A DNA stretch of 64,000 bases, from positions 1,488,001 to 1,552,000 of the forward strand of contig JBBPFI010000001.1 in assembly GCA_037974965.1 (NCBI GenBank), given 5' to 3'. This DNA comes from Dacryopinax spathularia (taxonomy: Eukaryota > Basidiomycota > Dacrymycetes > Dacrymycetales > Dacrymycetaceae). The notes beneath the pieces are model-generated. The model was not told the origin of the DNA. It made no database searches and saw only the letters and a list, made by a program, of their open reading frames with translations. The translations under genes were made by a program, and so were the position numbers. Below are positions 2,805 through 15,598 of this stretch, piece by piece; within the stretch, counting starts at the first letter, position 1, and each line of letters opens with the position of its first letter.

Positions 2805-3583
2805 CTCCCTCTTTCAACAAACAGCTGGTAATCGTAGTCGTAGTAGTCGTCAAGAGTCAAGCAGATCCAACGCAGAGCAACAGCGCCCCCTTCGTCCTCG
2901 TATGTAGGCGCTTGGTCGATGGCGGGAGTGTGGCGAGCTGGCCTGGCCTTCTGCTCGGGTTTACGTTACTGTGCTTCCTCTCCCCAAGTCAGGGATTGGG
3001 TGGATTCCGTGGCGATCGTGCGCAGTGGATTCCGGTGGGGCTGGAGCTGAGGCGTCGCGCGGGCAGATAGTCGCTTATAGCGTTTACAGAACTGTGCACT
3101 ATTTCGATAGTATAAGAGGCAAGATGGACGTTGTGGAGATGCAGGTACTGGTGCTAGGAGAGGGCGGGCGGCGGCGTCGTGTTGGCCCAACCGCGCGGCG
3201 CCAGTGACCACGCTCACCGGGTATGCGACGACCGGGCTCGGCCACACTTAAAGGAGACTTCACGCGGCTTGGCGCGCCGTCATCGCCTCACTTTTGGCAC
3301 TTTTTGGCCTGGAGCAAACCGCATCCGACCACCTACTTATCGGGCTGGGCACTGGGCATGATCTGGGCGTATACGGTCGGATATCCATCCTGCCCCTATC
3401 ATGATGTGTGGTAAGGTGCCAGCGAATGACCTGTGTGGTGATGATATGGATGGCGTTTGGGAGGACGGCACGCAACCCATGTGTGCTCGTTGGTCTAATT
3501 TGAGAAACAGTGTGCGTTTTCGTTGCTCTCACCATGCTTTGATAAGTAAGTACGCAGATGAACCTGTCAATAACGACGGTACT
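2805..3583. other. Intergenic region left of the CACTA element
   Basis: This holds the presumed upstream region of NCS1 and the left flank of the transposon insertion. Short open frames on both strands resemble no known family. The last three bases (ACT, 3581-3583) are the left copy of the target-site duplication. Confidence 0.6.
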
Positions 3584-3601
3584 CACTGCGTTCAGGGGTC
3601 C
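3584..3601 (+). repeat. Left terminal inverted repeat of the CACTA element
   Basis: CACTGCGTTCAGGGGTCC, preceded directly by the ACT target duplication. It differs from the right end at one position (T/C at base 4). Confidence 0.93.
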
Positions 3602-3778
3602 ATAGGAGACCCGCAGCGTAGGCGCGTGATGGTCCCGTACGCGGACGTACGGGCTGTCACAGCCACAGGGACCATAGGGGAAGGGGAGTGTAGCCCGGGT
3701 TAGGGCACACTCCCCAAGGTAGGAGGATCTCTTTTTTTTTAAAGTACAAATTTTTTATTGTATCTATTATTTGTGTAG

Positions 3779-3793
3779 TACAATTAGATACAA
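3779..3793 (-). promoter_or_regulatory. Left copy of a subterminal inverted motif
   Basis: TACAATTAGATACAA is the exact reverse complement of a 15-mer at 15421-15435. The two copies lie 195 bp and 160 bp inside the element ends, within AT-rich zones. CACTA transposases bind short subterminal repeats, so these are candidate binding sites; the function is inferred. Confidence 0.55.
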
Positions 3794-3801
3794 AAAATTT
3801 C

Positions 3802-4500
3802 TAATTAATGAAATACAATTATTTCTAAAATTTTGACCTACAGGAAGCGCGTGCGAGTCCTTCCTTGTAGGGTCCCTACAAGCACCTACGCGCGAGTCGT
3901 TGCAGGTCACGTGGCTAGGGACTCACCGTAGCCTCGAGGCCACCTCATGCCAGCGCCTACGCTAAGTCCCGAGCTCGTCGTCTACACCGACGACACCACC
4001 ACCTTCCCCCCCAACACCACCTCCCCCACCACCACCGACACCACCACCTTCCCCACCACCACCTCCCCCACCACCACCTTCCCCACCACCTGTTCCCCCC
4101 TCCACTCAACTTGAAACTTACCCCCCCTCAAGGCCCGACGACGACGACCACCTCAAGCCCCGAACCCCAAGGCTCCCTTCCTAGCTCTTCAGACCTCTTT
4201 TTGGAGGGTTGCTGAGCGAAGAAGGACGAAGACTATCGACGACCTCGAGCTCGAGGACGACGTTACCGAACCTCTGCAAAAGTTGAGGTCAGCGTCTCGT
4301 CCTCAACCCGAACGCAGCCAAGCAAGAGCTGCTATACAAACCGATCGTTTCCTATCGTTCGTTACGATAACCCACCAGCGGGTAGTTCTACACGTCGAGC
4401 GTGTAGAACAAGAAAGATTCGAGATATCCGGAGCGGGTTAGAGGCTGTCGAGCATTCGTTAGGTACGTATGTTCATGACCATGGCGAGAAATCGCCACAT
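3802..4500. other. Left subterminal zone and unresolved 5' part of the accessory gene
   Basis: The GC-rich part (3840-3960) carries short mirrored strings such as CTACAAGCACCTACGCGCG. An ATG at 3947 opens a frame coding for tandem T/P/F-rich pentads (TTTFP, TTSPT) up to a TGA near 4113. A second frame is open from about 4119 to 4440 (motif QTSFWRVAERRRTKT), and a third from 4216 runs straight into the Q-rich accessory protein. Some of these are probably 5' exons of that gene, but I could not fix the splice sites. The segment 4190-4211 is an exact copy of 10739-10760. Confidence 0.4.
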
Positions 4501-6074
4501 ATGCTGACGTTTCGCAGAGATATGACGTTCGCTACCTGGGAGAGTGGGTTTCGCAACGCCCCACGCGAACGCACCGAGTACGAGGAGAAGGTAGCGAGCG
4601 AGCTGGGCTTGCAGGTCGTCAAGCCAACGCCTGCAAAGGTGGATGGTAAGTTTGTTAATTGGTATTGTCATTACTCTAACTAACGACATTCCCAGATCCG
4701 CCACAAGCCAACTTCAGCGGGTCAAGGCACTTTACGCTGTACGACCGATGGCACAAAGACTACGCCCACCGCTTTCTCGACCAGCCCAGCACCCTCCGCA
4801 GGCGTGTCGACAACGAGACCCTCGCCATGTTCTCGGTTGAGCAGTTCCGAACCGCCCAGATCGAGGACCCGGCCGATCTCTTCAAGACGTCCACGTATGC
4901 AGAGCGCAGGGCTCGCTTCCTCGACCTTCGACAGCGATTCCTGGCTACCCAGAGTGGCCAGGGCGAGGACGAGCTCGCTTTCGTCGCCGAAGACCACGCC
5001 AAGAACATGTGGGTGCGAAGTCGACTCGATTGGACGGTCTACGCCCAGTCGTACGACCCCAAACGACCCCACCGTCCCTACTGCGAGGGTCCCCCACCAG
5101 ACGCCACGAACGCCATGGTCTGGTGGGCACCCCACCAGCTCCTCTGGTTCAGCCCGGTCTCCGTCAAGGGGGCTGCACCATGGAGCCGTGGCGAGCTCGA
5201 TCAGCTCTACGGTGGCATGGCCGGCTTCCTCAACGCCTGGTGGGCGAAGACATTGTGCGACGCCCACGACCACTTCCTCAAGACGGCTACCGACCTTCTC
5301 CGCCAGTACGCCGACCACGACCCCATCAAGATCGCGTATGGCGACCTCAGCAAGTTCTGGGGCGCCAATTTCGACATCGAAAAACGCGATTTATTTGATT
5401 GTATGACCTACGAGATGGGAAGGCTTGTGTGGCTTCGTGCCCAAGCCAAAGTACGCGATCTCCATGGCATTGTCAACTTCCTCCTCGCCCGCCTCCACCC
5501 CAACCCCCACACCCACGACAACCTCCCCACCGTCCACAACTACGTGGGCATTCGCATAGCCAGCCTCGGCAAGGACAACATACCCGAGGACCTGCCAGCA
5601 GACGTCCTCGCCAACCTCCTACACGATGGCGTCCCCGTCCTCCTGCCCCAGCTCGACCACAGCAAGCTGGAGATCCGTCCAGACGGTACAAGGTGCCCTG
5701 CACCTTGGAAGGACCGCAACCTGACCCTCGAATGGGTCAAGAAGACGCGCAAGTCGATCTACGACGCGCACATTGCGGCAGGCGGGGAAAAATTTGACTA
5801 CGAAGCGAACGCCATCTCGCCCTTCGCCAAGACGCGTGAGCAAGCTCGTGGATCGAGCAGGAAGGGGAAGAGGAGTCGTCCCGAGTCAGACGAGCCAGCA
5901 GCCGGGAGCAGCAAGGCTCCAAAGCTGGACGGCTTCCTCGGCAAGGTCAGGCAACGCGTCCACAACCTCAACCACTCTGCCAAGACGTGGGCGCCAGGGA
6001 TCGGTCGTCCACAAGTCCGATACGCGAGGGAACCGGGGACTGCTCCAGATGGCATTCAGCTGCCTCCTCCGCCT

Positions 6075-6127
<53 letters not shown>

Positions 6128-6150
6128 GCAACAACAGCAGCAACAACAGC

Positions 6151-6203
<53 letters not shown>

Positions 6204-6479
6204 CAGGAGCAGGAGCAGGAGCAGCAGGAGCCGCTCTTCCTTCGCGAGACTCCTCTGCCAGACGGACAGGCTGGCCCCTCCCGGTTCCCTCGCTATCCCT
6301 CCCCCTCCCCTCCCCGTTTCGACTCAGAAACGCCAGAGCCGCAGCGCCTGACGTCCGTCCCCTTATTCCTCGCCGATACCCCTCCACCTCCAGCACAGCC
6401 CGTCCGTTGCATTAACTTCAGCGATAAAGCTGCCCGGGCGGAGCTGCTGGCCAAGCTGAGGGCCAAGAGGGAGCAGTAG
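4501..6479 (+). CDS. CACTA accessory protein with poly-Q and Q/E tracts
   Basis: Exons 4501-4645 and 4696-6479 join in phase (donor gtaagt, acceptor cccag) and give 642 residues from the first in-frame ATG. The frame is open without an ATG back to 4216, so the true start may lie further upstream. I recognise no domain. The body is rich in W, H and D (LYDRWHKDYAHRFLDQ, NAMVWWAPHQLLWF, FLNAWWAKTLCDAHDHF), like the accessory proteins that accompany tnp2 transposases in CACTA elements. Near residue 480 lies an uninterrupted glutamine tract encoded by CAG/CAA, passing into alternating Q/E, then a Pro-rich tail ending in a basic segment (LLAKLRAKREQ). It is transcribed in the same direction as the transposase that follows 314 bp later. 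A role in transposition is inferred from position only. Confidence 0.65.
6075..6233 (+). repeat. CAG/CAA and GAGCAG microsatellite inside the accessory gene
   Basis: A (CAG)n tract with scattered CAA passes into (GAGCAG)n. It is in frame and encodes poly-Gln followed by Gln-Glu alternation. CAA interruptions tend to stabilise such tracts. Confidence 0.9.
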
Positions 6480-6714
6480 CGGGGTTCTCTTTCCTCATAG
6501 GTGAGTTTTCATTACTAACTAAATGCCTGATACTAACTTTACATATAGTTAGCTGTAGATCGTACTTTTCTCTTTCTAGGTTAGATATGAATACAACGCG
6601 TTAATCCCAGCATACACGAGTGGTTCCCCGGAGAACGATGGCCTTTTCGGGCACGAGCGTAAGTTAGGTCTGTTTTGGTAAGCTTCTTACCATTCTAGGC
6701 AGCCATCCTGGGAG

Positions 6715-6772
6715 GATCTGCCTGGTCTGCTTGCTTTGAGTCCCACGACTCAAAACGAGGACCAGGCAGGTC
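6715..6772 (+). promoter_or_regulatory. Two-tier hairpin in the tnp2 leader
   Basis: The outer arms CTGCCTGGTC (6718-6727) and GACCAGGCAG (6760-6769) are perfect complements and extend to 13 bp with one G-U pair. The inner arms TTTGAGTC (6735-6742) and GACTCAAA (6747-6754) pair perfectly around a 4-nt CCAC loop. The structure ends 21 nt before the transposase ATG. A hairpin this close to a start codon would be expected to lower translation; the effect is inferred. Confidence 0.6.
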
Positions 6773-6793
6773 TTCCTTCGCCATTCCCTGGAG

Positions 6794-9700
6794 ATGCCTC
6801 GGTCAGGCGCCAAGGGGAGGATTGTAGGGGTCAAGAAGTCGTCGGTAAGTGGGTGGGTAATCATTAGAGTCCTACTAACCTACTGTACAGCACGTATATC
6901 AACTCAAGGCACTCGAGAGATGCACCTGCGCACTGTGCAAGTCAGTTCATCCCGATGGGCGAGACATCAACAAGGTCAAAAAACGCGAACACGAACAACG
7001 AGAGCGCCGTGTGTCGAGACGACCAAATCGAACTCAAGCGCCGAATGCGATTGCCACGCCAAGCGCAATCCCACGCGAGCGCGTCCTCACACAGCTGATG
7101 GACGCGCTGTTCGAGCAGACGGATGTGGAGATGGGGGTGGTGGAGAGGGAGGAGGAGTTGATGAGGGAGCTGGGAGGGTTGGAGTTGGGCGAAAGGGAGG
7201 AGACGAGTGGGGAGGGAACGCGTACAGAGGGGGAGGGAACGGTCGAGATGGAGGATAGCTGGGAGACTGCTCCAGTGTGGGAGCCTCTGCCTGAGCCTCT
7301 GCAGGAGGAGCAGCAGGCGCAGGAGGAGCAGCAGGAGGAGCAGCAGGCGCAGGAGCTGGAGGAGCAGCACGAGCACCAGCACGAGCACGAGCACGAGCAA
7401 CATCAACAGCAACAGCAACACCAACAGCAACACCAACAGCAACAGCAGGACCAGCAGCCGCCTCAGCCGCCTATGCTACCCTCCGAAGACGACACGCTGG
7501 GCAGCGTGCAGGAGGTGTACACCAGCCTGCACGATGCGTCTCTAGTGCGTGCTGTGGCCCTCCTGCTGGTGTTCGCCCACGCCATCTACCACCTCCCCTT
7601 CGCCGCCTGCAACCTCTTCGCCAACGTCCTCTACGACGTTCTGCGACGCGCCGGAATCGACACGCAAGGCGGACCTCGAACGCTCACGACGATCTACAGT
7701 CGTCTGGGCATTGAAGATCGATTTGCAGTGAAGGTCGTCTGCAAGCGGTGCTGGTCGGTCTTCAGAGGTCGATTCGCCGAAGAAGAGGAAGTAGAAGCGG
7801 ACGCCGCCCAAGATCTCTGTTCAAGATGCGGAGAGTCATTGTATGAGCCAGTACTTGGCTCAGACAAGGTAGAGGCGCGACTTCGAGCGCCATACGACTC
7901 GCTGGCACAACAGCTCCGTGCCCTTCTCAAGGAACCGGCATTCGAGGACGCCTGCGAGTCTTACCTCGCCGAACCGCCGGTGCCCAACGGGCCCTACAGC
8001 ACCATCTACAACGGCAGCGTTTGGCGCAATCTCAAGGATACGCAAGGCAAGCCATTCTTCGAAGCTGAGAGCTTGGAGCCTGGGGAGATGCGACTGGGCA
8101 TCATAATTGGATTAGACTGGTAAGTCTGCCTACATGCGCTATGGAACTCTCGCTAACGACAAACCAGGTTCACTGCCTTCACATCCATCGGTGCGCCTGC
8201 CTACTCTGCAGGTGCGCTATCGGTCTGCATCGCAAATCTTCCCCCCATCCTTCGGTACGTGTCCTTGACTGTTGACGTGCGCGTAACTGACTGACTGTGC
8301 CAGATTTCACGTACACAACCTGATCCTCGTGCTGATGACGCCAGGACCGAAAGAGCCGAATGGGGATGAACTGGGACGCTTCTTGGAGGAGTTTGTGGAC
8401 GAGCTGGTGGCTTTGTATGAGCGAGGGATGATAGTGCGGACGCCGAGGTATCCTGCAGGTGCGCCCCAGTCGTCTCTGCCTTCTATGAGCATTACTAACT
8501 TGTACTTTAGGTCGATTGGTGCGCGTAGCGGTCGTAGCTGTGGCCTGTGACCACCCAGCACTCTGCAAAGTGTGCGGGTTCCCAGGCCACACCTCTTGCA
8601 AGCGTCCCTGCACGCAATGCAACGTAGAGACGGCCTCTCTTGGGGACAAGGCTGGCTACGATGTCAGGAGTGAGTTCTCACTCCCACTCTCTATTAACGC
8701 CTTGCTAACCTGTCTCTAGAAGTGTGTCTACTCGATGGTGAAGGCCACAAGCAACTGGGACGCGACTATCGGGTGTTGGAGAGCAAGAAGGACTGGGAGA
8801 AGTTCTTCAAGGAGAAGTTCGCCCGTTGGTCTGAGCTCTCCCGGCTGAGCTACTTCAACCTGGTGACGATGGCGGTGATTGACCCCATGCACACCTTCTT
8901 CCTGGGTGAGCACGCTGCATACGTACTTGACAAAGCTGACATCTGTTTAGGTATCATGCGACACCTGTGGTTCAACATCTGGGTGCTTGGTGGCAAGCAG
9001 AAGAAGCCCATCTTCCGCAAGAACACGGCTGCCAAAGAGCGCGAGCTCGAGCTGGTCAAGGAGGTGATTCGCTCGGTGAGTTCCTACTTGACTTGTTTAC
9101 TTGAACTCACCCTATGTATGCAGTGCGAGATGCCCAAGTGGTTTGGGCGGTTGCCAGCGGAGGTTGGGTCGCCGCCGGGTGGCTCGTTGACTTCAGATGA
9201 ATGGAAGACGATGTTACTGGTTGTGGGGCCCCTCTGTGTAAGTCTCTTTGACATTATAGCTCTTATTAACCCTGCTAACTGCTCTTAAACAGTTCCCGTA
9301 CATCCTCAAGCAGCTGAGCGCGGCAGACGACCTCGCTTCTCAAGGACAGGCACCGGCGGGCACGGGAACTTGCTTCCTCCACCTTGCCTGCGCCTGCAAG
9401 ATCATGCTGCAACGACAGGTGGCGGAGGAGGAGCTGGAGCGGGCAAGTGAGTTGTACAGGGAGTTCTACAGGAGCTTTGTCGAGGTGAGTCCCCTAACTC
9501 CAACACATGCGCGTATGCTGATCCCTCTGCAGATGTTTGGCAAAGAAAACCTTACGCCGACCTTTCACTGGCTCGTACACATGCCAGAGCAGATACGAAG
9601 ATACGGCGCCGTCCACAACATCTGGACGTTCATCTTCGAGCGGCTAAACAAGGAGCTGAAGAGCACGGCGACGAACAAGCATGGGAAGGGGAAGATGGAG

Positions 9701-10676
9701 GAGACGTTCGTGCGAGAGAGACAGAGGAGGGAGAGGATGAGACTCCTGGTGCGTGGACTGTGCTCACGGAATATGATCATTACTAACTACAAGTATAGCT
9801 ACGCGTCCTGAGAACGCAGGACGCGGATCCCTGTGCCCAGAGCACGGCACAGAGGATTACCGAGCACCTCGAGCAGGCCCAGGGCAGAGGGACGCTCGCT
9901 ACAATGGCAGCGCTCGAACGCGAGCAGGAGGCTGCCGAGGAGGACTGTACGTATGGTCCTCCAGCTTCTTTTATAGATGCTGACTTGGCGCAGATCGCGT
10001 CCCTTTCGGTCTGAGGCAACCCAAAGGCAATCGTACGCTGCCCAGGCCAGCTCTCAGGCAGCTCGCAGTGCACTACGCAGCTCAAGCACCCGATCGCCCA
10101 CTAGCCATCCTGCGCAACACGGCATCCTGCGAAAGACCCCATGTTGGCTTTCTGTGCGATCAGGGTGCCTATTACAACACAGTGGTTGTACAGGGATGGC
10201 GCGTAGATTGCAGCGCGGATCGCAGCCTGTCCCAGCACAATTCGCTCGTTGTGCTCGTGCAGGACGGGCGGAGATGGGTGGGCGAGCTCGAGGAGCTCTT
10301 CCTGCACACGCAGGCGTCTCTGCAAATGTCTTGCAGACTGGCCAAGGTGCGCTGGCTGGTAAGAGCCGAGCATACTGATCTCGAGCCCCTCTACGAGCCC
10401 TTGTAAGCGCTCTCCATTTCCCTGCTAAACTCACTCACTCACTGATCGCTTTGACATTAGCCCTGAACTCGAAGTTGACATTTGGGAGTACGACCAGTAC
10501 TTAGAATCCGGTAAAGGGGGACCGGACCAGTACGTATTGGCAGAGCGACTTGTGGGCTCGGCCGCTCGAGTGATCCTGGAGATTGGCGAGCACGATCGCG
10601 TGTGGGCTACAATAGCTCTGTACCGCGTAAGTCGCCTCCTTGAGTCGCTTTACACTTGCTGACATTACTCCAGTAG
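6794..10676 (+). CDS. CACTA transposase, tnp2 family
   Basis: Fourteen exons, all in phase: 6794-6844, 6891-8119, 8168-8254, 8304-8458, 8511-8669, 8720-8905, 8951-9075, 9124-9237, 9293-9484, 9533-9748, 9799-9946, 9994-10402, 10461-10626, and a stop codon at 10674-10676 that is its own exon (intron retention would add 11 residues). The product is 1,079 residues. Recognisable tnp2 blocks are LGIIIGLDWFTAF, PGPKEP (about 469-474), CDHPALCKVCGFPGHTSCKR, IDPMHTFFLG (about 614-623) and FHWLVHMPEQIRRYGA. The N-terminus holds a CTCALC cysteine pair followed by a basic stretch. Residues about 175-220 are Q/E/H rich (CAG/CAA/GAG repeats). Introns are 46-60 nt and many carry a CTAAC-type branch site. 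No frameshift or internal stop is visible, so the enzyme looks functional. It should recognise the CACTG/CACCG ends described here. Confidence 0.93.
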
Positions 10677-11188
10677 ATACAATTAATACACATTATTATT
10701 GTTAACCTACTCGTCCCGTGTCACCCTTTCCACGCGCCCAGACCTCTTTTTGGAGGGTTGGCATGCATGACTTGGCGTAGATATTATCTCCCCCTCATAC
10801 CCTTAACGACAGCCAGCAAGGATATCATTATTAAACCCCGGCCCTTGCGATACATTCTCAGGGGTAAGTCTTCCCCCGATGATCTTCTATCGCATCTATC
10901 TAATCTACTCCGTAGTCCCTGACGATCAGCTTCTCTTCGAGAATCCCTCCCCCGCATCCCTAAACAGGTAAGGCGGCATTGCAATTGGAGGCGTCGAAGA
11001 CTTACCGTGTCTTCTCAAGTCCTCCCGACACCGCCCCTCTCCATCGTCTGCACCGTTTCGTCAGCCGGCACAAGCTCGGCACTCAGGTAAGTCCCGGCCT
11101 CCCCTCCTTCTTCTTCTTCTTCCTCACTGTCTTCGCAGCTCTCGCAACCACCTCAACAACAACCACAACAACTACAACGCCCAACAAG
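10677..11188 (+). other. Spliced leader region of the 137-residue CACTA gene
   Basis: No coding frame is convincing. Three GT-AG intervals (for example donor ggtaagtc near 10863 and acceptor ccgtag near 10915; donor cag|gtaagt near 11085 and acceptor cgcag near 11140) suggest 5'-UTR introns. Bases 10739-10760 exactly repeat 4190-4211. The last 60 nt before the ATG are rich in CAACAAC, typical of a fungal leader. Confidence 0.5.
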
Positions 11189-11646
11189 ATGTTTACCGCC
11201 CTTCGCCGCCCTGTTGCCAACTCGGTTGGCCTTCGTCTCGCGCCCCGCTTCGCCCGCATCGTGCCCACTCTCGCTGTGGGTCGCGTTTTCGCCGTCGGGA
11301 GTGGCCATTTGGGAGTTGCTGGACCGGCTAAGCCGGTCATTAATCGAATGAGCCTGAGGGCTCGTGCGAACAAGGTAAGTGTCTCTTTCATTGAGTGACG
11401 TTGCTGACCTTTGTACAGATTGCCCTTTGTATGGGCTCGCGGGCGACCTATGGACTCGGGATCGTCGGCACTGCTCTCGTAGGGGGCTACTTTGCGTACG
11501 TTTTCGTGTGCAACGAGCTCGCGCGCATCAAAACCGCCTTGCACGATTACGAAGACATCAAGGAGACTGCCCCGCGTGTTTACAAGGACGTCAAGGCGGT
11601 CGGGAGTGCCGTTTGGGAGTGGGGTAAGAAGTTCCTCGGGAAATAA
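11189..11646 (+). CDS. Small membrane protein with mitochondrial-type presequence, carried by the CACTA element
   Basis: Exons 11189-11374 and 11419-11646 join in phase and give 137 residues. The first 35 residues hold seven Arg, no acidic residue and regularly spaced hydrophobics (MFTALRRPVANSVGLRLAPR), a typical mitochondrial targeting profile. One hydrophobic segment follows at about residues 70-90 (YGLGIVGTALVGGYFAYVFV), then a charged amphipathic tail (TALHDYEDIKETAPRVYKDV) ending WEWGKKFLGK. I recognise no family. It lies inside the element between the transposase and the reverse-strand gene and has its own spliced leader. It may be captured host cargo or an element-specific gene; localisation is inferred from composition only. 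Confidence 0.65.
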
Positions 11647-11998
11647 AGGGTTTAATTAGCTTTGTGAGTTTCAGTCGTCTAAGTGAAACCGGTTACTGAC
11701 TACTTCGGCAGAGATTAACTAGTTTTACAGCACCGCTCAGGCTACAAGTGTACGAATGGCTCCAAAATGGTGAATAATGTTCCCCTCTATTTTTACTCAG
11801 TCCCAGGCGCATGCCTGGTGACTCTTTGTTGATTTCTGGCTGTACTCGTGCGCTAAGGCGGCGAGTACTACTTCTTAACTGGTGATATTACCCGGGCAAG
11901 CCCCTACTACAAGAGGCGACGAGGGAACTCGCTATGACTTATGTAGACCCACTTGGGACCACTTTCTGGTGGGCCCAGGCGTGTTCTACACCTGTATC

Positions 11999-12200
11999 AT
12001 CAGCTTCTTCCTCTTCCTCTTCTTCTTCATCATCATCCGCATCTTCAACTTCATCTTCATCTTCCTCTTCATCATCTTCTTCATCTTCATCATCCTCTTC
12101 CTCCTCTTCTTCCTCGTCTTCTTCCTCCTCTTCTTCCTCGTCTTCTTCCTCATCTTCGTCTTCCTCGTCTTCTTCGTCATCTTCTTCTTCAACTTGCTGA
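11999..12200 (+). repeat. CTTCTTC/CATCTTC low-complexity tract
   Basis: About 200 bp of interrupted pyrimidine-rich trinucleotide repeats (TTC, CTC, ATC). It keeps several frames open (poly-Ser, poly-Phe/Leu, poly-Glu/Asp on the other strand), so the long open frames here are not evidence of a gene. Confidence 0.85.
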
Positions 12201-12228
12201 TCCCCTCTTGCAGGCTGTACTACGCGAG

Positions 12229-12279
12229 GTAGGAATGCTTCGAAGTATACCCCGTATATTTCTCGAAGCACTCCTACAG
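12229..12279 (+). repeat. Hairpin intron-like repeat, copy 1 (51 nt)
   Basis: Starts GTAGGAATGCTTCGA and ends TCGAAGCACTCCTACAG. The two arms are inverted complements at 14 of 15 positions, and the unit begins with GT and ends with AG. It is preceded by the 15-mer GCTGTACTACGCGAG, itself directly after a CAG. Confidence 0.7.
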
Positions 12280-12445
12280 GTGCATATCCGCGCGTATGCA
12301 ATATCGGCAAGGCGAACTGCAACAAACAGACGCGAAAAGGTACGGTCTCGTGCTCCTCATCGTCCTCATACTCATCCTCATCCTCGTCCTCCCTCTTTTT
12401 CTCCTGCCGCTCGCTAATACCGTGTCACAGGCTGTACAACACTAG

Positions 12446-12496
12446 GTAGGAATACTTCGAATTTCACCCCGTGAACTTTTCGAAGCATTCCTACAG
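12446..12496 (+). repeat. Hairpin intron-like repeat, copy 2 (51 nt)
   Basis: Same layout as copy 1: GTAGGAATACTTCGA ... TCGAAGCATTCCTACAG, preceded by GCTGTACAACACTAG after a CAG. Arms match at 14 of 15 positions and the loop keeps a central ACCCCGT. Confidence 0.7.
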
Positions 12497-12698
12497 GTCA
12501 ATCCCGGCACTTTCGCAAGATCGTCAAGCGGGTTGCGAACAGCCACCCAACGGTAAGTACGCTCAACTTGATCTGCTCGCCTGCACGCAACTGACTACGT
12601 TGCCCTACGTAGCCATTGCACAGTCGAATTCGCCGGACTTTCGCGTACTTAAACGCTCCCTGCAGCTCGCTCCCTCCTCCAAGTCGCCAACCACCACC

Positions 12699-12980
12699 AT
12701 GCAGTTCCCTGGCGCGTTTCAAGGCATCAAGAGCTTTTTCAAGGTAAGTAAAGTCTTGTTTTGGCATTCATTACTAACCTTACATAAGCTTATCTGGGGG
12801 CACACCCCTTCGTTCGAAGCCCTGCTGCTATTTGCCAATCGGGCCCATAAGTTGATTGCGGCCATCAACCTTGTCCTCACTGGCCTGAAGACAATGAGGG
12901 GACTGTTGAGGGAGTTGAGGGATGGGGGGGAAAGGGGGGAAAGGGGGGAAGGGGGGGAAGGGGGAAATAACCATGTGTAA
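12699..12980 (+). CDS. Small amphipathic protein of the CACTA element, 78 residues
   Basis: An ATG in good context (CCACCACCATGC) opens a 45-nt exon, MQFPGAFQGIKSFFK. A GT-AG intron (12744-12788, acceptor ataag) joins it in phase to 12789-12980. The middle is helical and hydrophobic (ALLLFANRAHKLIAAINLVL) and the C-terminus is a G/E/R repeat encoded by runs of GGGGGAAA. There is no known family. The leader contains two of the hairpin repeats. This is the second small gene between the transposase and the reverse-strand gene. It could be a decayed or very young gene. Confidence 0.4.
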   Translation: MQFPGAFQGIKSFFKVSKVLFWHSLLTLHKLIWGHTPSFEALLLFANRAHKLIAAINLVLTGLKTMRGLLRELRDGGERGERGEGGEGGNNHV

Positions 12981-13508
12981 CTGAGATTTCTCAGTAATCT
13001 TCTCTAATCTTTCCTGTGAGCGTTTCCAAGTCGTTCGCACTAATTTCATTACTAACTACTTTCGCAGCATCGTAACTTACAGATTGTGCTCATCTCTCGT
13101 CTCCCCACTCATTCCTAATGGTACTTCCGTTTCCCCTCTCTTCCCTCCTTTCGTACTTGTTCCGGCCTTGCTCTAAGACCGCTTTCTGGCGGGTTTGGGC
13201 AAGGTCATTAATATCGTCATTATCATTGTCATTGTCATTGATATTGACAATGTTTTCGTAGGCGTCCAAGGGTCTGCGAGGTAAGAGTGTTTCGACACTT
13301 ATCCATGTGAGGATTAGTTTGTCGTAGCATTCTTACAGATCCATATGCCTTTGCCAGGACCGGGCTTTCTCACTCGCTGCTAAGTACTGTCACTGTATCT
13401 CATTCTGAAGTCACTAACTACATTTTACAGGCTTTTCTATACTACTTAGGAGACAGACTAACTACGTAAGTCCTTTTTTTTGGGTTTTTCTTTGGGTACT
13501 TCGGCTGA
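12981..13508. other. Region between the two convergent ends of the CACTA gene set
   Basis: No gene is seen. It holds a short TCATTATCATTGTCATTG run near 13205-13250 and, at 13281-13338, the third hairpin intron-like repeat. It is bounded on the right by the stop of the reverse-strand gene. Confidence 0.5.
13281..13338 (+). repeat. Hairpin intron-like repeat, copy 3 (58 nt, diverged)
   Basis: Starts GTAAGAGTGTTTCGACA and ends TTGTCGTAGCATTCTTACAG. The outer arms still pair (GTAAGA/TCTTAC, CGACA/TGTCG) but less perfectly than in the two copies near 12.2-12.5 kb. Confidence 0.55.
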
Positions 13509-15106
13509 TCAATCCTCTGAGAAATACAGGTCCTCGTCGATCCAGGGGGCATTTCCCTCAATCGCCTGCTGGAAAGTCTCCTCATCAGGGAAGCATTCAG
13601 GTCTGCCCTGAACGGGCTCCCAATGCACCAAGTCGCCGATATTAGACTCTTCCCACTTCGGATCAACCATCCACTGCCAAGGATCCACTCCAGGCAGCCG
13701 ATCCGACTTGCGATTCAAATTCGCACGCATGTAGTGAATCTGCGATTTCGTTCCTTTGCCCTTCCCTTTGCTGATCCTGGCCGGTTTCCCCTTCTTCTTA
13801 GAGAGCCTTTCGAGCTGCTGAAGCAGCTGAAATACCTAATACAGGTGAGTAAGTTTCTTCCATTGTCCTTCACTGCCGCTGCTTACCGACTTCTTCATCC
13901 ACGCTGGTCGTTGCACCTCCACGACGGACACCTCGTCAGCAACGCTGGGATCGCTCATACCCAGCTTCTTGAGTACCGATCCCCGCCAATCGGTACCATC
14001 CTCCATCTCGCCGTCGGACACTTGATCGGGCATCCACTCGTGGTCGAGGAGCTCGGTTGGATCCCATTTCGCCTTGTTGATAAACGCGCGGATGGTTTGC
14101 TTGTCCTTGAGTTGGTCGGAGTACTTCAGCATGAGGTGAGCAAGATGGATCTGCGGATGAGTAGAGGGCTTACCACTTTCCGCCTACTCAAACGCCTGTT
14201 TTGCGACTTGTGAGTTTCATTGTTGTCTACTCGCTCGGATTCTGGCTCAACCCCATCCAGCCATTTGCCCTTCATCGTACTCCACGAGCCCTTCGCGATT
14301 ACTTCAAGGGCGTCTGATTTGAGGAACTCGGGAGAGCTAAAGGTGTCTGCCTATAGAACGATAAGGTAAGTATATGCTCTCTCATAGTGCGGTATGCTCA
14401 CATTAATGGTGCGTAGGACGTTGTCGATCGCCTTTTTTATGATGGCCATGTTATCGGGTGCGTTGACGTTCTTAGAGAAGTCGGGGATGAGAAACGGCTC
14501 AACGCGACCTTCGGGTAGGATAAGGGCTGTGTCGCCCTTGCTGATCATGAGGTTGTACTCCTCATATCCCACGATGGTAAACATTTCCTTTCTGATATTG
14601 TTCTAGCTGACAGTTAGACAGGTTGTTTAACCGCGAAGAGACGAAAGGGACTCACTTGCAACCAGGTACGGTCGTCGTTCTGCTGCTGGCTCAGCTCCGT
14701 CTTCTTCTTCTTAGCAACCTCTTTCCCAGTCTGATCCCCCGGCTCCTCCCCTGGCTCACGCCGCCTCGCTCGCTTCTTGCGAGCGGACATGGCCGCCTGG
14801 CCTTGTACCAGCTCGCGGAGCTGCTTGATCTCGGCCTGAAGCGCGTCAATGCACTCGTCATCGCCTCCCCAGCCATCCGAGGTACGCTGGGTAGTCCTTG
14901 CTGGTGTGAGGGGCCTTTGCTGACGCGCGCGTAGGCTGCTGGAGACTTTTGGTGCGAGGGGAGGAGCTTGCATTAAGGGGGAGAACGGGTCGCTGTCACT
15001 GGCTTGGGTAAGTTCTGAGTATATGCGCCCAAACGAGTACTTACCTTTGGCCTAGCTCGCGCTCGTCGCTGTCCAGTCGTTCGAGCTCATACTCAGTGGA
15101 CGACAT
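13509..15106 (-). CDS. Second large CACTA protein, reverse strand, function unknown
   Basis: Exons 15045-15106, 14656-14998, 14402-14602, 14174-14350, 13887-14150 and 13509-13835 give up to 457 residues. The step between exons 4 and 5 is uncertain: the nearest phase-preserving intron would be only 23 nt, while an acceptor ending AAG at 14124 gives a 50-nt intron and 448 residues. The N-terminus is acidic (MSSTEYELERLDSDERELGQ), then a coiled-coil-like stretch (DALQAEIKQLRELVQGQ) and a strongly basic patch (RKKRARRR, KKKKTE) that could be nuclear-localising. Near the C-terminus is DRLPGVDPWQWMVDPKWEES. CACTA elements usually encode a second DNA-binding or helper protein besides tnp2; that role is an inference from position and charge. 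It converges with the transposase unit. Confidence 0.75.
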
Positions 15107-15420
15107 CTCAAGGGAATCGGAAAGCGGGCGGGAGAAGCTGAGGCTGGTCGAGGGGGAGAAGGGAAAGAGAGAGGGAAAGAGAGAGATGTATGCACGATAC
15201 GACGTGCATAGGATAGACTAATAAATCCCGTCTACCCTCCTCTAGCCCGAGACGAAGGAAGTCGACATAGGAGGGACTACAATAGCCTTTTTGGGTATCG
15301 AGTACCCCCGCGTACGCGCGCTTCCTGGCCGATCATGTACGGGTGCCTGCGCAAAACATCGCGCGCCCCTCCAGCAAGTAGATAGAATAATTTTTTTGTA
15401 TATTAAATAAACTACATTAA

Positions 15421-15435
15421 TTGTATCTAATTGTA
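15421..15435 (+). promoter_or_regulatory. Right copy of the subterminal inverted motif
   Basis: TTGTATCTAATTGTA is the exact inverse complement of 3779-3793, in the AT-rich zone near the right end. A further TTGTATCTAA overlaps it. Confidence 0.55.
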
Positions 15436-15577
15436 TCTAAACTACAAAAAAAAACTCCCCAGGCCAGGATGGGGTGAGTATCCGGGCCTGGAGAGCACCT
15501 CCTCGTACGCGACCTACAGTCACGTGCGGGGACTTCTTGTAGGCGCCCTACGCGCGCCTACAAGACCCTGGGGATAG

Positions 15578-15595
15578 GGACCCCTGAACGCGGTG
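15578..15595 (-). repeat. Right terminal inverted repeat of the CACTA element
   Basis: The reverse complement reads CACCGCGTTCAGGGGTCC and is followed directly by the ACT target duplication at 15596-15598. Confidence 0.93.
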
Positions 15596-15598
15596 ACT

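Follow-up and report, generated by a model that had tools for sequence, protein, structure and literature searches.

We have analyzed a window of 64,000 nucleotides of the fungus Dacryopinax spathularia (G000:C1:1488001-1552000), the window being the whole stretch of DNA examined, within a genome of 29.2 Mb in 24 contigs. At window positions 3584-15595 lies a CACTA transposon of about 12 kb, with a transposase gene and four other genes between short terminal inverted repeats (TIRs). Its features are collected in Table 1, where coordinates follow window numbering, and other copies are named by contig, C1 being the copy in the window. The most unusual trait of this element, missed by the initial annotation, is that its cargo also occurs in a second transposase lineage and has been exchanged with it; this is the part that deserves to be reported.

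Structure of the element

The initial annotation described 18-bp ends identical at 17 of 18 positions and flanked by an exact ACT duplication, and both were found exactly at the positions claimed. The outermost bases are CACTG..CGGTG (CACTG/CACCG ends), short TIRs that start with CAC(T) although not with CACTA itself. These ends coincide with the limits of similarity among copies, since similarity to the C13 and C2 copies begins 1 base outside the left end and ceases 4 and 12 bases beyond the right one. Two 8-mers picked after inspection, CCTACAAG and CGCGTACG, each occur four times in the two 320-bp ends together and never in the interior of the window copy, a pattern reached by none of 294 random segment pairs used as control; CCTACAAG is absent from the ends of the C12 copy. 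The joined flanks, read by eye, contain no convincing interrupted exon, and disruption of a host gene at the insertion site was discarded.

The transposase reading frame stays open across 13 coding exons, and the 12 introns between them have GT..AG ends and lengths of 45-58 nt. One additional intron was recognised by eye ahead of the stop codon, which accounts for the 14 exons annotated initially. The spliced protein matched Transposase_21 (E=6e-15, 55.4 bits, cut-off 28.6) and, narrowly above its threshold, DUF4218 (E=3e-6, 27.3 bits, cut-off 27). The predicted catalytic residues D426, D521 and E802 align with the D, D and E of the Tnp2 protein of the second lineage. Between the second D and the E are found a C(2)C motif (CTQC) at 541 and an H(3)H motif (HWLVH) at 778; C(2)C and H(3-4)H in this interval is the motif set given for the clade in the available part of PMC12730594. 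With TIRs starting in CAC(T), a 3-bp duplication, PF02992 and DUF4218 domains, a DDE triad with C(2)C and H(3)H, and subterminal repeats, the element is a CACTA (EnSpm) transposon, a new family of a known superfamily.

Gene 1 is open in a two-exon model, genes 3 and 4 are open with two exons each in the models used, and the reading frame of gene 5 is continuous over six exons, its five introns keeping GT..AG ends in the three copies compared. All five genes thus splice open, with 21 introns in total by our models against the about 20 counted before. Ends, duplication, transposase domains and open genes agree in describing a complete CACTA transposon with intact genes, as had been proposed. Genes 1, 3, 4 and 5 gave no Pfam family above cut-off, and gene 1 gave no sequence match in the PDB at E up to 1. 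When genes 1 and 5 were checked for a DNA-binding accessory protein like TNPA, neither had a recognised domain. Gene 5 has matches only in C1, C2 and C13, plus a diverged one in C12.

Table 1. Coordinates of the features of the window element, and its paired copies in the genome
Feature	Position	Strand	Details
Target site duplication, left copy	3581..3583	.	ACT
Left TIR	3584..3601	+	CACTGCGTTCAGGGGTCC; 17/18 match to right end
Left subterminal region	3584..3903	.	short repeats
Gene 1	4522..6479	+	exons 4522-4645, 4696-6479; 635 aa, MTFATWE...
Transposase gene	6794..10676	+	13 coding exons and stop-codon exon; 1,079 aa; Transposase_21 (PF02992), DUF4218
Cargo cassette	10843..13063	+	common to second CACTA lineage (C7, C8, C14 copies)
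Gene 3	11189..11646	+	137 aa, one intron
Gene 4	12699..12980	+	78 aa, one intron, partly hydrophobic
Gene 5	13509..15106	-	six exons, 449 aa
Right subterminal region	15276..15595	.	same short repeats
Right TIR	15578..15595	-	reverse complement CACCGCGTTCAGGGGTCC
Target site duplication, right copy	15596..15598	.	ACT
Long copy, window element	C1		duplication ACT
Long copy	C2:727236-739397		duplication AGT
Long copy	C13:235542-247411		duplication ATT
Long copy	C12:719396-731274		duplication AAT
Short element	C2:2670456		duplication AGT
Short element	C4:860792		duplication AAT
Short element	C6:28021		duplication AGT

Copies in the genome, target site and age

We searched the assembly for the 18-bp ends with 3-bp duplications, as the initial annotation had proposed. 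The TIR pattern with up to 2 mismatches gave 22 sites genome-wide against 2 for the reversed pattern used as control. Fourteen of these sites make up seven end pairs, the window copy included, each with an identical 3-bp duplication; besides the window element they comprise three long copies (11.9-12.2 kb) and three short elements. Four more sites pair with ends from a second search (C10:55228, C3:377589, C12:884171 and C16:736305), and two pairs came from that second search alone (C3:2357910 and C5:1516828); its pattern contained ANT and gave 54 sites against 15 in the control, about half of the sites being unpaired. The last four sites (C9:804172, C13:177740, C6:901688 and C21:17493) have neither a partner nor an adjacent A-N-T and were not counted as insertions. 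An identical A-N-T duplication flanks all 13 paired insertions, and in 11 of them the flank of at least one end had been found with the pattern lacking ANT. This is far beyond chance, which would give 1 in 16 per site.

Four relatives are short, of about 1-1.5 kb. They have in common with the window copy some 145-295 bp at each end, with 67-89% identity (the C6 one is interrupted by an insert), and their interiors gave low-complexity matches only, the one exception being a match of 45 bp between C10 and C2. On this evidence we rejected that they are simple deletions of the window copy; judging by their sequences, they are relatives with similar ends. At C2:739474 a related element has its left end (CACCGCATTTAGGG, preceded by AGT), 77 bases past the right end of the C2 copy (C2:739397), and related transposase matches at C2:743k point to two related elements lying adjacent there. 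The C9 and C5 loci had no recognisable ends in the stretch read and were handled as fragments.

When C1, C2 and C13 are compared, the ratio of nonsynonymous to synonymous change (dN/dS) ranges between 0.16 and 0.26 in the transposase, between 0.11 and 0.16 in gene 1, and between 0.30 and 0.35 in gene 5. The transposase is free of stops in C1 and C13 and has one in-frame stop in C2, while that of C9 is missing residues about 122-595; gene 1 and gene 3 of C9 remain open despite this broken transposase. The initial annotation considered the element apparently autonomous. We find autonomy plausible, no more, given that the transposase has its DDE residues, reading frames are open, dN/dS values lie between 0.11 and 0.35, and the genome contains dispersed copies and short relatives.

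The element had also been called young, and here the data disagree. The nearest copies, C2 and C13, differ from it by about 7-18% by aligned block (identities of 88-93% and 82-92%, respectively), the synonymous distances (dS) from the window copy to them are 0.17-0.32 for transposase and gene 1, and no near-identical full copy was seen. The perfect duplication, from which youth had been deduced, is no clock, because all 13 paired elements have one, including C2 with its in-frame stop. We regard the element as intact and constrained, and a recent insertion is not supported by these comparisons. Part of it does have a more recent history with C2, since identity between the two copies, taken in 150-bp steps, is 94-100% throughout 13034-14533 and dS of gene 5 between them is 0.075.

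Exchange of cargo between two CACTA lineages

Gene 1 has 27 matches in the genome and gene 3 has 20. Both are found together at C7:1279-1283k, C8:961-966k and C14:988-992k, and each of these three loci contains once, with 0 mismatches, the same 22-bp left end, CACTAGAGACGCGCAAGGGTCC. The transposase of the C8 element, encoded on the other strand from gene 1, matched Transposase_21 (E=8e-23) and is 26% identical to the window transposase over 239 aa. The arrangement is also different: at C7, C8 and C14 the matching portions of genes 1 and 3 are about 1.5 kb apart, and in the window the two genes are separated by the transposase. Using the C8 transposase as query we found at least 10 loci, at least eight of them lying no more than about 10 kb from a gene 1 match (C7, C8, C14, C16, two on C10, C9:1173k and C2:1236k) and at least two without (C5:2036k and C7:286k). 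One exon stretch of the window transposase retrieved at least 15 loci, at least five with gene 1 (C1, C2:732k, C13, C12:725k and C9:782k) and at least 10 without. Gene 1 is seen more often beside the second transposase than beside the window type, these counts being lower bounds. One element (C16:736305-749287) has ends like those of the window and an ATT duplication but a transposase of the second lineage (57% identical to that of C8), and is possibly a hybrid of ends and transposase.

Along the window copy, identity in 150-bp steps gave a mosaic. C2 is 82-100% identical to C1 outside 10634-12883, and inside this interval identity falls to 69% or the sequences are in places unalignable. C12 is 86-99% identical between 4184 and 6583, but across the transposase its steps either reach no more than 82% or fail to align. 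In the cassette nearly every step is again at 78-99%, and most of the right arm could not be aligned.

Gene 3 exists in two types, one in C1 and C12 (96% protein identity) and the other in C2, C9, C8 and C14 (C7 is excluded from this comparison). Its dS is 0.25 between C2 and C8, and 0.25-0.28 when C2 is compared with C8 and C14, against 0.64 between C2 and its sibling C1. In a comparison of one 200-base stretch of gene 4, C14 shares 93-98% identity with C1 and C13 but 78-80% with its sisters C7 and C8. Within the tract 1780-2000 of extract L053, C14 carries the type common to C1 and C13 at 31 of 32 informative sites, and from position 2013 on it follows its sisters at 24 of 26. There are 64 informative sites in total, those outside the tract being 25 of sister type, six of window-family type and one of neither. 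As the limits of the tract were set after viewing the identity, the p-value of this comparison is descriptive. Because dS of gene 3 is lower across lineages than within one, and because C14 switches type inside gene 4, the pattern seen in these alignments is explained by gene conversion or recombination between elements and not by plain common descent. Among the open-access papers retrieved by our searches, judged by title and the start of the abstract (subscription papers and Repbase being outside this scope), we found no report of cargo exchange between CACTA lineages.

Gene 3 is open in all six copies read in frame, including C9 with its broken transposase, and its dN/dS is 0.13-0.41. C13 gave no gene 3 match, though its transposase is open. 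The 62 N-terminal residues of the gene 3 product include 11 basic ones (9 Arg, 2 Lys) and no acidic ones, and there is one hydrophobic stretch, which suggests, no more, a mitochondrial membrane protein.

Several small structures were observed in and around the cassette. Inverted-repeat stretches of about 50 nt, found by eye at window 12228-12278, 12445-12495 and 13274-13330, start with GGTAGGA or GGTAAGA and finish with TACAG, resembling introns with terminal inverted repeats; they do not have the CTAAC branch site common in the other introns of the element, and they occur in the cassette of both lineages (extracts L051, L052, L053, L060 and L071). A genome-wide introner-like family of such short GT..AG hairpins was rejected, with 94 matches at up to 3 mismatches against 73 in the reversed control; at up to 2 mismatches, 11 of 16 matches were inside the cassettes of these elements. 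A short stem, CCTC-loop-GGAGG, appears at window 4190-4211, 10739-10760 and 13175-13196, that is, ahead of gene 1 and in or near the cassette, the third copy carrying a paired change (CCGC/GGCGG). Similar stems were seen by eye near gene 1 in the C8 element (locus L079). Beside the left end of that element (L079, C8:959400-960780), on the minus strand, there is a sequence resembling a PIF/Harbinger-type transposase. To the left of the window element, at about 780-2630, the translations presumably correspond to a membrane protein of the EMC3 type and a calcium sensor with EF-hands.

Comparison with known elements

Other classes of fungal transposons do not fit. Plavaka elements, according to the part of PMC12730594 available, have TGT..ACA or CATCA..TGATG termini with 2-3 bp duplications, against CACTG..CGGTG here; ESTA or CNEST-like elements make TA dinucleotide duplications, against 3-bp A-N-T in all 13 pairs; and no TET/JBP domain was found in the proteins of the element.

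The initial annotation held that full-length fungal CACTA elements are rarely described in detail, which is true in part, as CNIRT6 and the EnSpm families of rusts were already published (PMC12810828, PMC12730594, both available in part). CNIRT6 of Cryptococcus neoformans also has CACTG ends, with 24-bp TIRs, 3-bp duplications and a CMC-type DDE transposase. It has been shown to be mobile, but it measures 7.5 kb with one annotated gene of 6.9 kb, its duplications are variable in sequence whereas those of the window family are all A-N-T, and the accessible sections mention no exchange of cargo (PMC12810828). The TET/JBP elements of rusts and other fungi resemble the window element in their 5'-CAC..GTG-3' ends, 3-bp duplications, C(2)C and H(3-4)H motifs and extra cargo. 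According to the sections available, their cargo gene passed between fungal transposon lineages, EnSpm being one carrier lineage; that cargo is a dioxygenase, and its transmission was inferred from phylogeny (PMC12730594), whereas in our case the crossover tract is visible in one genome. Plant En/Spm (TNPA/TNPD), also mentioned in PMC1636069, has a Transposase_21 transposase, subterminal repeats, a 3-bp duplication and more than one protein as well, but the window element differs in its five genes, 13 transposase introns, cross-lineage cargo and CACTG instead of CACTA. The SmTRC1 paper, in the part available, places fungal elements in the superfamily and reports a tryptophan/glycine interchange in the first motif (PMC1636069); GLDWF in the window transposase shows this same interchange.

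Discussion

We propose, with a probability of roughly 85%, that this is a full-length, structurally intact CACTA cut-and-paste transposon that evolves as an exchangeable assembly, and we read it as a chassis with exchangeable cargo. The engine would consist of the CACTG ends, the A-N-T target preference and the Tnp2-type DDE transposase. By analogy with other CACTA elements, the transposase would cut at the ends and insert the element at A-N-T sites, duplicating 3 bp, and a DNA-binding partner encoded by the element (the product of gene 1 or gene 5) would probably assist it at the subterminal repeats. The cassette of genes 3 and 4 has a homologous counterpart in the second lineage, and the alignments show that parts of it passed between the two lineages through recombination or gene conversion. 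The exchange would take place among co-resident copies, and selection would keep the cargo. More tentatively, the cassette may circulate, in divergent allelic types, among CACTA lineages with different ends and transposases about 26% identical, under selection of its own, and so be a longer-lived selfish unit than the transposase.

Several points weigh against this proposal. The DNA-binding role of gene 1 is a guess by analogy with plant TNPA, and the AlphaFold2 prediction of its product (alignment of 6 sequences) reached a mean predicted local distance difference test score of only 40.5. The genome scan with PF02992 omits the window copy, whose exons are split by introns, and the family assignment comes from the spliced protein. 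The cargo of C7, C8 and C14 is placed by left end and transposase only, as no inverted partner of CACTAGAGACGCGCAAGGGTCC was found at these loci with up to 3 mismatches. Few informative sites precede the gene 4 tract (4 of 5 of the type of C1 and C13), leaving a left limit that is not sharp, and the downstream run falls partly in a stretch rich in indels, where some sites belong to one indel context. Exchange was demonstrated for genes 3 and 4 only, and gene 1 (43% amino acid identity to C7, C8 and C14) could be vertically inherited.

Vertical descent of everything, from one ancestor with gene 1 and genes 3 and 4, followed by fast divergence of the transposase and loss of cargo in some lineages, is very improbable. 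An old common origin would fit the 33-43% identity of gene 1 between the window family and the eight gene 1 loci near the second transposase. For the cassette of genes 3 and 4, however, our alignments already contradict a vertical origin, with gene 3 closer across lineages (C2 with C8 and C14) than within the family (C1 with C2) and the switch of gene 4 type in C14. It also seems rather unlikely that we are dealing with an old, inactive CACTA in which luck or recent conversion has kept the frames open and of which no copy is now autonomous. In its favor, the closest copies are only 82-93% identical by block, and the transposase is interrupted in C2 and lacks a part in C9, but chance survival of reading frames open across 13 exons in C1 and C13, with dN/dS well below 1, is unlikely. 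A possible, though not favored, explanation is that genes 3 and 4 came from the host in a single capture and were then spread by elements, under selection for a host or selfish function. The conservation of gene 3 in every copy read in frame, even beside the broken transposase of C9, speaks for it. Nevertheless, we identified no free-standing copy in the host, two weaker matches to gene 3 (C9:673k and C9:757k) adjoin gene 1 matches (C9:685k was left aside), and C13 keeps an open transposase with no gene 3 match.

The transposase is the usual basis for classifying DNA transposons and tracing their descent, as though the whole element had one history. Here, within one genome, the histories of transposase and cargo differ, and one breakpoint of the exchange between families can be read base by base. 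This case adds a second, unrelated cargo to the TET/JBP precedent, as far as the available part of PMC12730594 describes it, together with co-resident elements in which exchange can be followed and a clear A-N-T target preference. It suggests that such elements evolve by exchanging parts.

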